DNA from: Desulfuromonadales bacterium
GTDB lineage: Bacteria > Desulfobacterota > Desulfuromonadia > Desulfuromonadales > Syntrophotaleaceae
Assembly: GCA_030154185.1 (NCBI GenBank)
Contig: JASKKK010000002.1
Location: 30,621 to 94,620 of the forward strand
Direction of reading: 5' to 3'
DNA: 64,000 bases
The position numbers and the translations under genes were made by a program. The notes beneath the pieces are model-generated. The model did no database searches and was not told the origin of the DNA. It saw nothing but the letters and a program-made list of their open reading frames with translations. Within the stretch, counting starts at the first letter, position 1. Every line of letters starts with the position of its first letter. Of this stretch, positions 19,122-23,860 are shown piece by piece.

Positions 19122-19508
19122 TCAGCTTCCCGAATAGGCTATGCCTTCGATTTCGACCAGGGCGCCCTTCGGCAAAGCCGTCACTTGAACCGTAGCACGT
19201 GCCGGTTTTGCTTCTCCGAAATATTCCGCATACACTTTGTTGACCGCGGCAAAATCCTGCAGATCGGCGAGGTAGACCGTCGTTTTCAACACCCGGTCCG
19301 CGGCGAGACCTGCGGCTTCCAATACCGCCTCGATGTTTTTAAGCACCTGTCGCGTCTGTGTTTCCGCATCCTGTCCAACAATATTTCCGCTGACCGGATC
19401 GAGGGGAATCTGCCCGGAAAAAAACAGATAGTCGCCGGTCCTTACCGCCTGGGAGTAGGGTCCGATGGCGGCGGGCGCCTTTTGCGTGTTGATTTTTTCA
19501 ATCGGCAC
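19122..19508 (-). CDS. ridA: RidA family reactive intermediate deaminase
   Basis: [48 protein letters not shown]. Confidence 0.94.
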
Positions 19509-19629: not shown

Positions 19630-21786
19630 TCAGTGGCGCAGACGCTCCACCTGATAAACGCCCTTGACCTGGTGCAAAGCATTGAGGACGCGGTTGAGAT
19701 GCTCGACGTCGACCACTTCGACAGCAAAAACGATAAGACTTTTCTGGGTCTTGGTCCGCTGCACACTGGCGCTGGCAATATTTGCCTCACAGGCACTGAT
19801 AGCGTTGCTGACACTGGCCAGCACCCCTTTTCGGTCTTCGGTGGCAAGGCGGATCTTGGCCGTGTGGGGCGCTTTCTTCTTCACATCCCATTCAACTTCG
19901 ATTTGCCGATCCCTGTCACTCTCCAGCACACTGGGGCAGTCGGACTGATGGACGGTAATGCCGCGCCCCCGGGTGATAAAACCTACCACCGGATCCCCGG
20001 GCAGAGGATTGCAGCATTTGGCAAAACGCACCATGATATCCCCGATACCTTGGAGCTTGATGGCGCTCGATGGCTTTTTTCGAACCGGACCGGCCTGCGG
20101 TGCCGCTACCCCCTTATCTTCCGCTTCGGGACGAAGTTTATCCGCAGGAACGACCCGGCTTACAACCTGCCCGAGAGGAACTTTGCCGTAGCCGATGCCA
20201 GCCAGAAGATCGCTGGACCCATGATAACCGAGATCCTGCATGGCCTGGGAAAATTCCTTGGATGCCAACACTTTTTTAAGGCTGCAGCCATATTTACGCA
20301 GACGCTTTTCAAACAGCTCCTTACCGAGCTCGATGCTTTTTTCCCGTTGTTCGGTCTTGACCCAGTGGCGTATTTTGCTGGCCGCGCGGGAGGTAACGAC
20401 GAACTTGAGCCAATCCTTGCTTGGCGTCTGATTCGGTGAAGTGACAACCTCCACCACATCGCCGTTATTGAGAGGGGTCTTCAACGGTACCAGCTTGCCG
20501 TTGACCCGCGCACCCACGCAGCGATTACCGACTTCCGTGTGTACGCTGTAGGCAAAATCGATCGGTGTCGCTCCGCGAGGGAAAGCCTTCACCTCCCCCT
20601 TGGGGGTAAAAACATAAACCTCTTCGGAAAACAGATCGACCTTGACGGAACCGACGAATTCGTGGGAATCGGAAAATTCCTGCTGAGAATCGAGCATTTG
20701 CCGCAGCCAGCCGAATTGCCTTTCGTCCTTGGTGACGATACTGTCCCCGCCGCGACCTTCCTTATATTTCCAGTGGGCGGCAATCCCCTCCTCGGCAACC
20801 CGGTGCATCTCCTCGGTGCGGATCTGCACTTCCATGCGTTCACCGTAAGGACCGATCACCGTGGTGTGCAGCGACTGGTACATATTCGCCTTGGGCATGG
20901 CGATGTAGTCTTTGAAACGGCTGGCAATAGGTTTCCACGCCGCATGGATGACCCCCAGCATGGCGTAGCAGTCCCGCACATCCTTGACAATCACCCGAAA
21001 TGCGATGAGATCGTACACCTGCTCGAATTCGATTCCCTGACGCTGCATCTTTCGCCAGATGGAATACAAGTGCTTCTGGCGACCGTAGCACTCCCCTTCG
21101 ATGCCGTTTTGCCGCATCTTTTCACATAACTGCTTGCGAACATTCTCCACATATCCGGCCCGGTTTTTGCTCTGCTGCTCCATTTTGGTGCGCAGGTCGG
21201 CATAAACCTCGGGCAACACGTAACGCAGGGACAAATCTTCCAGTTCGCACTTCATCCAGCTGATACCGAGACGATTGGCCAACGGCGCGTAGATATCCAG
21301 GGTTTCCTGGGCGATGCGACGCTGCTCCGCTGCCTCACGGCTTTCGAGGGTGCGCATGTCGTGCAACCGCTCGGCCAGTTTGACCAGAATCACGCGGATG
21401 TCGCTGGCCATGGCCAACAGCATTTTGCGGAAATTTTCCGCCTGCTGTTCTTCGCTGGTGGTAAAAGTGATGCGCCCCAGCCTGGTCAGGCTCTGTACCA
21501 ACTCTCCGACATTCTCGCCGAAAAGAGCCTGCAATTCACCGACATCGGCCAGTTCCTGCTGCAGAATATCGTGCAGCAGGCCGGTCGTAATGGTGGGGAC
21601 ATCCATCTTGAGGCGAATGAGGATATTGGCGATTTCGAGACTGCTGTTGAGGTAGGGTTCGCCCGACAGACGCGATTGTCCGCGATGCACCTTGGCGCTG
21701 TAGACATAAGCCTTCCGCAATATGTCTACATCGGCCTTTGGATTGTAGGCTTGGATTTTTTCGATTATTTCATCTAAACGGAGCAT
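19630..21786 (-). CDS. RelA/SpoT homologue (RSH): (p)ppGpp synthetase with HD, TGS and ACT domains; hydrolase site appears degenerate
   Basis: Synthetase RFKDYIAMPKANMYQSLHTTVIG; TGS VFTPKGEVKAFPRGATPIDFAYSVHTEVG; C-terminal ACT; HD domain reads YLNSS, HDILQQ, LAERLHD. Confidence 0.93.
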   Translation of the reverse strand: MLRLDEIIEKIQAYNPKADVDILRKAYVYSAKVHRGQSRLSGEPYLNSSLEIANILIRLKMDVPTITTGLLHDILQQELADVGELQALFGENVGELVQSLTRLGRITFTTSEEQQAENFRKMLLAMASDIRVILVKLAERLHDMRTLESREAAEQRRIAQETLDIYAPLANRLGISWMKCELEDLSLRYVLPEVYADLRTKMEQQSKNRAGYVENVRKQLCEKMRQNGIEGECYGRQKHLYSIWRKMQRQGIEFEQVYDLIAFRVIVKDVRDCYAMLGVIHAAWKPIASRFKDYIAMPKANMYQSLHTTVIGPYGERMEVQIRTEEMHRVAEEGIAAHWKYKEGRGGDSIVTKDERQFGWLRQMLDSQQEFSDSHEFVGSVKVDLFSEEVYVFTPKGEVKAFPRGATPIDFAYSVHTEVGNRCVGARVNGKLVPLKTPLNNGDVVEVVTSPNQTPSKDWLKFVVTSRAASKIRHWVKTEQREKSIELGKELFEKRLRKYGCSLKKVLASKEFSQAMQDLGYHGSSDLLAGIGYGKVPLGQVVSRVVPADKLRPEAEDKGVAAPQAGPVRKKPSSAIKLQGIGDIMVRFAKCCNPLPGDPVVGFITRGRGITVHQSDCPSVLESDRDRQIEVEWDVKKKAPHTAKIRLATEDRKGVLASVSNAISACEANIASASVQRTKTQKSLIVFAVEVVDVEHLNRVLNALHQVKGVYQVERLRH

Positions 21787-22023: not shown

Positions 22024-22230
22024 TCACCCTTTGCGGGTAGGAATCTCGTAATCGACCTTTCCGGCGGCGATTTCGCGCAGGCAATGGACGACCCGCTTGT
22101 TGTTGGATTTGTTTTCGATGAGCTGTTGAGCACCTTTGTAAAGCTGCTTGGTCCGTTTGGCGGCAACCATCACCAGCAAAAAGCGATTAGGAATCTGCTG
22201 AAGGCAATCTTCGACAGTGATTCTAGCCAT
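22024..22230 (-). CDS. rpoZ: RNA polymerase omega subunit
   Basis: [30 protein letters not shown]. Confidence 0.95.
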
Positions 22231-22302: not shown

Positions 22303-22938
22303 TCATGCGGTCGTCTCAAGATCCTGCATATCGATCCCGAACAGACGTATGGCTTCCTCCCTCGTGCGGGAAGACCGGCATCCTTCCGCCAGGATTATTC
22401 CTTTGAATTTTTCGACGGCTTGCGACAGATCGTCGTTGACGATGAGGTAATCATACCAGACCAGCTCCCGGATTTCACGCCGGGCATTGGCCAGGCGCCG
22501 GCCGATAACCTCTGGGCTGTCGGTATTGCGACCCCGCAACCGTCTCTCAAGCTCTTCCAAACTCGGTGGCAAAATGAATATGAAAACCCCATCGGGGCAA
22601 TGACGCTTGAGCTGTTGCGCTCCCTGACAATCGATATCGAGCAGCAAATCCTGTCCCTGATCGCGCGCTTCCTGCAGGGTGGCCAGAGCCGTACCGTAGC
22701 AGTTGCCATGCACCCTTGCCCATTCGGCAAACGCCCCTTCGGCGACCATGGTATCGAAAATTTCCTGAGAAACGAAATGATAATCGACACCGTCCGTTTC
22801 GCCGGACCGTCGCGGTCGGGTGGTAAAGGAGACAGAGTGACGCATATTGGGAAAAATGTCAATAATCTGCCGGCACAGTGAGGTTTTACCTGCTCCCGAA
22901 GGCGCGGATATGACAAACAGGATGCCGTTTCGTTTCAT
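22303..22938 (-). CDS. gmk: Guanylate kinase
   Basis: [44 protein letters not shown]; start at 22938. Confidence 0.96.
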   Translation of the reverse strand: MKRNGILFVISAPSGAGKTSLCRQIIDIFPNMRHSVSFTTRPRRSGETDGVDYHFVSQEIFDTMVAEGAFAEWARVHGNCYGTALATLQEARDQGQDLLLDIDCQGAQQLKRHCPDGVFIFILPPSLEELERRLRGRNTDSPEVIGRRLANARREIRELVWYDYLIVNDDLSQAVEKFKGIILAEGCRSSRTREEAIRLFGIDMQDLETTA

Positions 22939-22981
22939 GCATTCTCTCCCGGACATGGCAGCCGCAGTCGGCGGCCTTAGA

Positions 22982-23860
22982 TCATTCAATGTTCTGTACC
23001 TGTTCGCGAATCTTTTCCAGGTCGGCCTTCATGGCCACAACCAGACGCGTCAGTTCCAGGTCGTTGGACTTGGAGCCCATGGTGTTGGCTTCCCGATTCA
23101 TTTCCTGAAGGATGAAATCCATCTGCCGGCCGACAGCCTCCTCAACACTGAACAGCCCTCTGAACTGTTCGATATGGCTGTTGAAGCGGCTGAGCTCCTC
23201 GCTGATGTCGCAGCGATCGGCGAACACCGCTATTTCCTGGGCAATTCTCTGGGGATCGGCTTCGAAACCTTTCTCCAGCCGCGCCAATCGTTCGGTGAGT
23301 TTTTCTTTCCACTCCACGGGGACCTGAGGCGCGCGCTCACGCGCTGCAATCAACAGAGACTCGATATGTTCCAGATGTTCTTCCATATCGCGACGGGTGG
23401 CCGTTCCCTCGGCATTGCGCATCTGTTCCATGGCACCCAGTGCCTTTGTCAGAGCCTCCGCCAGACATCCGCTCACCGCCTCTTCATCAGGCTCGGCCTC
23501 GGCCAGAGCGATGACTTCCTTTTGTCCGGCCAACAGATCGACGGTCACCTCCCCTTCCAGGGCATATTCCGCACGCATCTGACGAAACAGAACCATGTAG
23601 GCAGCCGCAAGTTCCTTGTTGAGAACCGGCATTCGCCCTGCACAGGCATTGTTCTCGACATTGATGAATACGTCGATTTTGCCACGCTTCAGGCGTTCCC
23701 CTACCCGCTTTTTGATCTCTGCCTCATGGCCGAGGAGATAACGCGGCGCTTTTACGGATATATCGCCGTAGCGATGATTTACCGACTTGATCTCGACCGT
23801 AAGAGACATATCGCCGGCAATCGCCTGCCCCTTACCGTAACCTGTCATGCTTTTGATCAT
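22982..23860 (-). CDS. YicC family endoribonuclease
   Basis: MIKSMTGYGKGQA, EIKSVNHRYGDISVKAPR, C-terminal REANTMGSKSNDLELTRLVVAMKADLEKIREQVQNIE. Confidence 0.94.
   Translation of the reverse strand: MIKSMTGYGKGQAIAGDMSLTVEIKSVNHRYGDISVKAPRYLLGHEAEIKKRVGERLKRGKIDVFINVENNACAGRMPVLNKELAAAYMVLFRQMRAEYALEGEVTVDLLAGQKEVIALAEAEPDEEAVSGCLAEALTKALGAMEQMRNAEGTATRRDMEEHLEHIESLLIAARERAPQVPVEWKEKLTERLARLEKGFEADPQRIAQEIAVFADRCDISEELSRFNSHIEQFRGLFSVEEAVGRQMDFILQEMNREANTMGSKSNDLELTRLVVAMKADLEKIREQVQNIE

Follow-up and report, generated by a model that had tools for sequence, protein, structure and literature searches.

The window analysed here, a stretch of 64,000 nucleotides from a Desulfuromonadales contig, carries in the rpoZ locus a gene for a long RSH protein (Table 1), in which the synthetase motif of bifunctional Rel enzymes is found together with an altered hydrolase site. 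The question raised by this locus is whether such an enzyme may still hydrolyse (p)ppGpp and, if it does not, by which protein the alarmone would be removed.

The 718-aa reading frame contains all the peptides quoted from it in an earlier, sequence-only reading (SGEPYLNSSLEIA, TTGLLHDILQQELADV, LVQSLTRLG, VKLAERLHDMRTL and RFKD), and the gene order gmk-rpoZ-RSH-ridA, given by the same reading, was confirmed by Pfam matches of the neighbouring genes. The architecture of the protein, as determined by Pfam, is HD, synthetase, TGS, AH/RIS (detected as RelA_AH_RIS) and ACT. Its AlphaFold model (pLDDT 75.5) finds its best matches among Rel, RelA and SpoT structures; for this model, as for that of the second RSH described below, a fold match does not test activity.

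Table 1. Features of the long RSH locus and of the second RSH locus of the same genome. Positions refer to the window, unless another contig or locus is named.
Feature	Position	Strand	Evidence or remark
Long RSH (Rel-derived), predicted synthetase-only Rel[hS]	19630..21786	-	718-aa ORF, ATG start; TIGR00691 750 bits
Pseudo-hydrolase domain HD_4, residues 26-175	21262..21711	-	Pfam HD_4 167.7 bits; catalytic residues changed
Ser48 in place of metal-ligand His (RelSeq H53)	21643..21645	-	YLNSS; YLxHP/YLNHS in relatives
Gln76-Gln77 in place of catalytic Glu81-Asp82 (HDxxED)	21556..21561	-	HDILQQ; common to all six genomes of the genus
Glu139 in place of metal-ligand Asp144 (LADR)	21370..21372	-	KLAER
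Asp143 in place of Asn148 (LHNMRT)	21358..21360	-	LHDMRT
Synthetase domain RelA_SpoT, residues 235-344, intact	20755..21084	-	Pfam 153 bits
RFKD motif in the synthetase domain	20908-20919	-	
TGS domain	20440..20619	-	Pfam TGS 89.7 bits
ACT (RRM-like) domain	19642..19869	-	Pfam ACT_4 66.4 bits
rpoZ (omega subunit), upstream of the long RSH	22024..22230	-	Pfam RNA_pol_Rpb6
gmk (guanylate kinase), upstream of the long RSH	22303..22989	-	Pfam Guanylate_kin
ridA-type gene, downstream of the long RSH	19122..19508	-	Pfam Ribonuc_L-PSP
Short RSH, 467 aa from the likely start	G000:C10:23407-24807 (L002:1099-2502)	-	Genome-wide search; outside the window
DksA/TraR gene beside the short RSH	L002:2712-3185	+	Also at L121, L129, L132, L133, L137, L141
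UPF0047 (YjbQ-type) gene	L002:661-1080	-	Downstream of the short RSH

Catalytic positions are given in the numbering of the RelSeq structure. At the HD positions H53, H77, D78, E81, D82, D144 and N148, canonically HHDEDDN, the window protein reads S-H-D-Q-Q-E-D. The degenerate hydrolase site, as previously described, was therefore confirmed, but the list of changes was incomplete, the replacement of the metal-ligand H53 by Ser having been missed. E81Q, D82Q, D144E and N148D are also present in all five other genomes read from the genus, while H53S was found in the window genome alone and the other five keep the His. A sequencing error as the cause of the HD changes was ruled out, since they recur across the genus. 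In the synthetase, all 14 catalytic or substrate positions checked are canonical, RFKD included, and the description of this half as of the bifunctional type (RXKD, not EXDD) holds.

The protein was compared with the two RSH classes that it resembles. It has the architecture (HD-SYNTH-TGS-helical/CC-ACT) and the RXKD motif of Rel[HS], without the canonical hydrolase residues; like RelA[hS] it combines, as judged by residues, an inactive HD with an intact synthetase, but carries RFKD where RelA has EXDD. The GTP diphosphokinase model PRK10872 scores 560 bits on it, below the cut-off of 728. Its best matches are Rel proteins of the same order and, in a tree of long RSHs rooted on the sister order, it groups among these, together with relatives whose hydrolase site is intact.

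The gene order had been described as matching that of the usual sole bifunctional Rel. The long RSH is not the only one, however: the window genome holds a second, truncated RSH on contig C10, found by the genome-wide search that the sequence-only reading had proposed. The short protein shows an HD_4 domain (113.6 bits), a TGS and a weak RelA_SpoT match (35.8 bits, compared with 153 for the window protein), and ends soon after the TGS; an ACT domain, looked for with Pfam, is absent. Its HD motifs are canonical (SGEPFFIHP, HDVVED, NGLTK, KFWDRMDN). In the synthetase region, SALYTLE stands in place of YDxxAxR, without the catalytic Asp, and RVQITT in place of EVQIRT, without the Glu. Searching the whole genome revealed no HD_4 protein above the Pfam cut-off besides the long and the short RSH. 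The AlphaFold model of the latter (pLDDT 84.5) likewise has Rel, RelA and SpoT structures as its best matches; against Rel catalytic fragments, TM over the target reaches 0.86-0.89.

By their residues, the two proteins are putative complementary halves, [hS] and [Hs]. The prediction that (p)ppGpp removal depends on another protein is thus supported by a good candidate, with an intact hydrolase site and a synthetase that is presumably dead. Because pseudo-domains are retained in each protein, domain presence alone would label both as bifunctional, and annotation established on this basis would misname them.

The short RSH was compared with two hydrolase classes. The intact HD and, by residues, the dead synthetase of SpoT[Hs] are found in all of the 44 short RSHs read, without the full C-terminal regulatory half; an assignment to SpoT was rejected on architecture, as the protein has no ACT and ends after the TGS. 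An assignment to the small alarmone hydrolases (SAH/MESH1), which consist of the HD alone, was also rejected, since both the pseudo-SYNTH and the TGS are kept. In a tree in which they were compared with Rel proteins, the short RSHs form one clade on a very long stem, which makes the tree compatible with duplication as well as with transfer as their origin.

The distribution of the short RSH was analyzed in 136 genomes of the order, very probably Desulfuromonadales, many of them draft MAGs, to which a stricter completeness filter was then applied. Of the 88 genomes of the order with a completeness of 90% or more, 86 have the short RSH, and its identity within the order ranges from 60 to 92%. 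None was found in 112 genomes of the sister order, nearly all of which have one long Rel. A search of 396 sampled phylum genomes gave no ortholog outside the order, and the hits that follow are Rel proteins of the usual kind, 711-750 aa long and 34-38% identical. One genome rated 100% complete (G008, L199) is without a short RSH; its Rel is canonical.

In 73 of the 75 genomes with a decayed Rel, a complete or partial short RSH is present, the two exceptions being drafts of 87-88% completeness. Ten genomes with a decayed Rel that are finished or nearly so were examined; in nine of them the HD_4 proteins above the cut-off number exactly two, namely the long decayed RSH and the short RSH. This distribution fits the idea that the short RSH makes Rel decay tolerable, as a correlation on a single origin: since the short RSH was gained once, its gain and the licence for decay are confounded, and the causal claim rests on one event.

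The decay was described from seven HD and fourteen synthetase residues, which were read in three sets of proteins: the long RSHs of the order (115), short RSHs (44) and sister-order Rel (70). The HD residues are HHDEDDN in 70/70 sister-order Rel and in 44/44 short RSHs. In the long RSHs of the order they are canonical in 40 of 115 and changed in 75, with about 50 different residue combinations, which include losses of metal ligands (HN, HE or QN for HD; LAVR for LADR) in addition to changes of E81/D82. The changes of the window protein exceed chance drift, because all 70 sister-order Rel are fully canonical. The sequence-only reading had named, as an observation that would overturn its interpretation, a natural variation of these residues among proven hydrolases of the clade; neither reference set shows it. 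The synthetase is canonical in all 115 readable long RSHs, with the motif RHSKDRKDYQHEQR, and in none of the 44 short ones, as judged on aligned motifs; in the latter, D264 is mostly replaced by T, A or S, and E323 mostly by R.

With the HD domain excluded, a tree of 124 rows was computed from residues 200-716 of the long RSHs, the sister order serving as the root. At least 11 changes between intact and decayed states are required on it; assuming irreversible loss, 13 separate decayed clades are counted, and stricter definitions of decay (loss of a metal ligand, or of E81 together with D82) give a minimum of 11-12 changes. The tree was built by a quick method and leaves some forks open, so the exact number of losses is soft. 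In some of the clades that show only one mild change (HDxxEN), the hydrolase may still be functional. One row, L195 (G073, f9/g27), shows a canonical HD though the rest of f9 read is decayed; it is a long branch, and may be either misplaced or a first-splitting member. The residues support the suggestion of the sequence-only reading that a Rel-type enzyme, with RXKD and in the rpoZ locus, has independently lost its hydrolase. What had appeared as a single odd enzyme is instead one instance of an order-wide trend.

Substitution rates were compared within genera, and frameshifted rows were left out of the final table. In decayed genera the ratio dN(HD)/dN(SYNTH) is 2.04, with values exceeding 1 in 11 of 12; genera with an intact Rel give 0.73, the sister order 0.63 and the short RSHs 0.72. 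The omega of the decayed HD is about 0.10, still indicating purifying selection, and no long RSH whose full length was read has lost the domain. Purifying selection and retention imply that some function remains; the decayed HD is a constrained pseudo-domain rather than debris.

The same constraint could mean that (p)ppGpp hydrolysis persists in the long enzyme, at a low level or with a different use of metal, the short RSH being auxiliary or differently regulated. H77-D78 are kept in the window protein and in most decayed enzymes, Glu is able to substitute Asp as a ligand (D144E), and conservative or single changes, such as HDxxEN, are found elsewhere. In the window protein, however, residual hydrolysis would have to cope with QQ at E81/D82, Ser at H53 and Asp at N148, and across the order with some 50 combinations lacking a common replacement motif and with an HD rate doubled relative to that of the synthetase. 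We consider this reading unlikely. Remodelling of the site for a new substrate or chemistry, also raised by the sequence-only reading, would agree with the conservation of the HDILQQ/LAER/LHD set across the genus and of H53 in five of its six genomes. The replacements in other families are unrelated to these and their rates relaxed, with no new conserved constellation order-wide. The variety of combinations and the relaxed HD rate disfavour a different chemistry, and make it very improbable.

The short RSH itself shows an omega of 0.03 for the HD domain and of about 0.05 for the pseudo-synthetase, so that the latter, too, is under constraint. It might nevertheless be a pseudogene or serve another role, (p)ppGpp being cleared by a Nudix enzyme or by GppA/Ppx plus others: other bacteria have Nudix enzymes capable of degrading ppGpp, and one Ppx/GppA is encoded in the window genome. 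A pseudogene is difficult to reconcile with the low HD omega, the identity of 60-92% maintained throughout the order, the uniformly canonical HD residues and a model that matches Rel catalytic fragments, so that this is the least probable of the explanations considered.

In families f1, f13, f16, f18 and f21 a divergent DksA/TraR zinc-finger gene lies beside the short RSH; in the window genome it is one of only two genes of the DksA family. Since RNA polymerase of E. coli is a joint target of ppGpp and DksA, the adjacency supports a role of the short RSH in alarmone signalling. The UPF0047 gene is found downstream of the short RSH in most f1 genomes read, and farther away in genus g4. In G118, a single-contig genome with a decayed Rel, the short RSH (L245, G118:C1:1263297-1265251) has an apparent frameshift near residue 385, within the TGS, with HD and pseudo-synthetase intact.

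The explanation in which we have high confidence, as far as residues can tell, is that the long RSH is a synthetase-only enzyme with a pseudo-HD, that (p)ppGpp would be removed by the short RSH of the same genome, and that an ancestral short hydrolase would have relaxed selection on Rel. A truncated, hydrolase-only RSH would have been fixed once in the ancestor of the order. The Rel hydrolase would thereby have become dispensable and selection on its HD site would have been relaxed; Rel would then have lost hydrolysis repeatedly, the N-terminal HD becoming a non-catalytic, probably regulatory, pseudo-domain. The complementary residue losses, the distribution of the short RSH, the repeated HD decay and the rates are read directly from the sequences. 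From these we infer the activities assigned to the two enzymes, hydrolysis being predicted for the short and not for the long one, the causal direction and the essentiality of the short RSH. It is also likely, with somewhat lower confidence, that the short RSH acted as a one-way ratchet, the Rel hydrolase having been lost at least 11 times independently, with intact forms persisting in sister lineages.

The separation of alarmone synthesis and hydrolysis is textbook knowledge for E. coli RelA and SpoT, where it arose long ago. Here one order shows it at many stages, repeatedly and with the putative enabling partner identified, and offers a replicated test of subfunctionalisation and of the role of pseudo-hydrolases; if true, it would be a replicated natural experiment in the origin of RelA/SpoT-like systems. 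The short RSH is predicted to be essential in every member with a decayed Rel, and dispensable in those that keep an intact one.

A representative of the short RSH has very probably been named before, since we take RshD of Pelobacter carbinolicus to be this protein. In the parts of Atkinson et al. 2011 (PMC3153485) that we consulted, RshD[HS] is a second long-type RSH of P. carbinolicus, with both domains recorded, placed with RshC of Bacillus, a TGS-truncated protein to which it is possibly related, in a group of 76% support; delta-proteobacterial Rel is listed as bifunctional, and these parts make no mention of reciprocal losses or of an order-wide presence of RshD. In the open-access literature searched, the name RshD together with ppGpp and RSH occurs in that paper and in no later one, and no publication was found that describes a divided RSH system for this order.

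Among known systems, RelA[hS]/SpoT of Beta- and Gammaproteobacteria (PMC3153485, PMC8012599) similarly divides synthetase and hydrolase over two RSHs and keeps an inactive pseudo-HD, which in E. coli RelA regulates the synthetase (PMC8012599). Unlike RelA, with its EXDD, the synthetase described here has RXKD and the rpoZ locus; the hydrolase is truncated after the TGS, with a dead synthetase, in a different phylum; and HD decay is repeated, intact and decayed Rel both being found in one order. The hydrolase-only SpoT[Hs] of Moraxellaceae (A. baumannii, PDB 7QPR, PMC9974481) resembles the short RSH in its intact HD, its pseudo-SYNTH, which is regulatory (PMC9974481), and its synthetase-only partner. 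A. baumannii SpoT has, however, a full C-terminal half (HEL, ZFD, RRM), whereas the short RSH stops soon after the TGS and is only 27% identical to it by structural alignment. The small alarmone hydrolases (MESH1, RelH) are dedicated hydrolases, as predicted for the short RSH, which additionally keeps a pseudo-synthetase and a TGS. The split in this order, with its truncated hydrolase and repeated HD decay, appears to be of separate origin from both RelA/SpoT and the Moraxellaceae SpoT.
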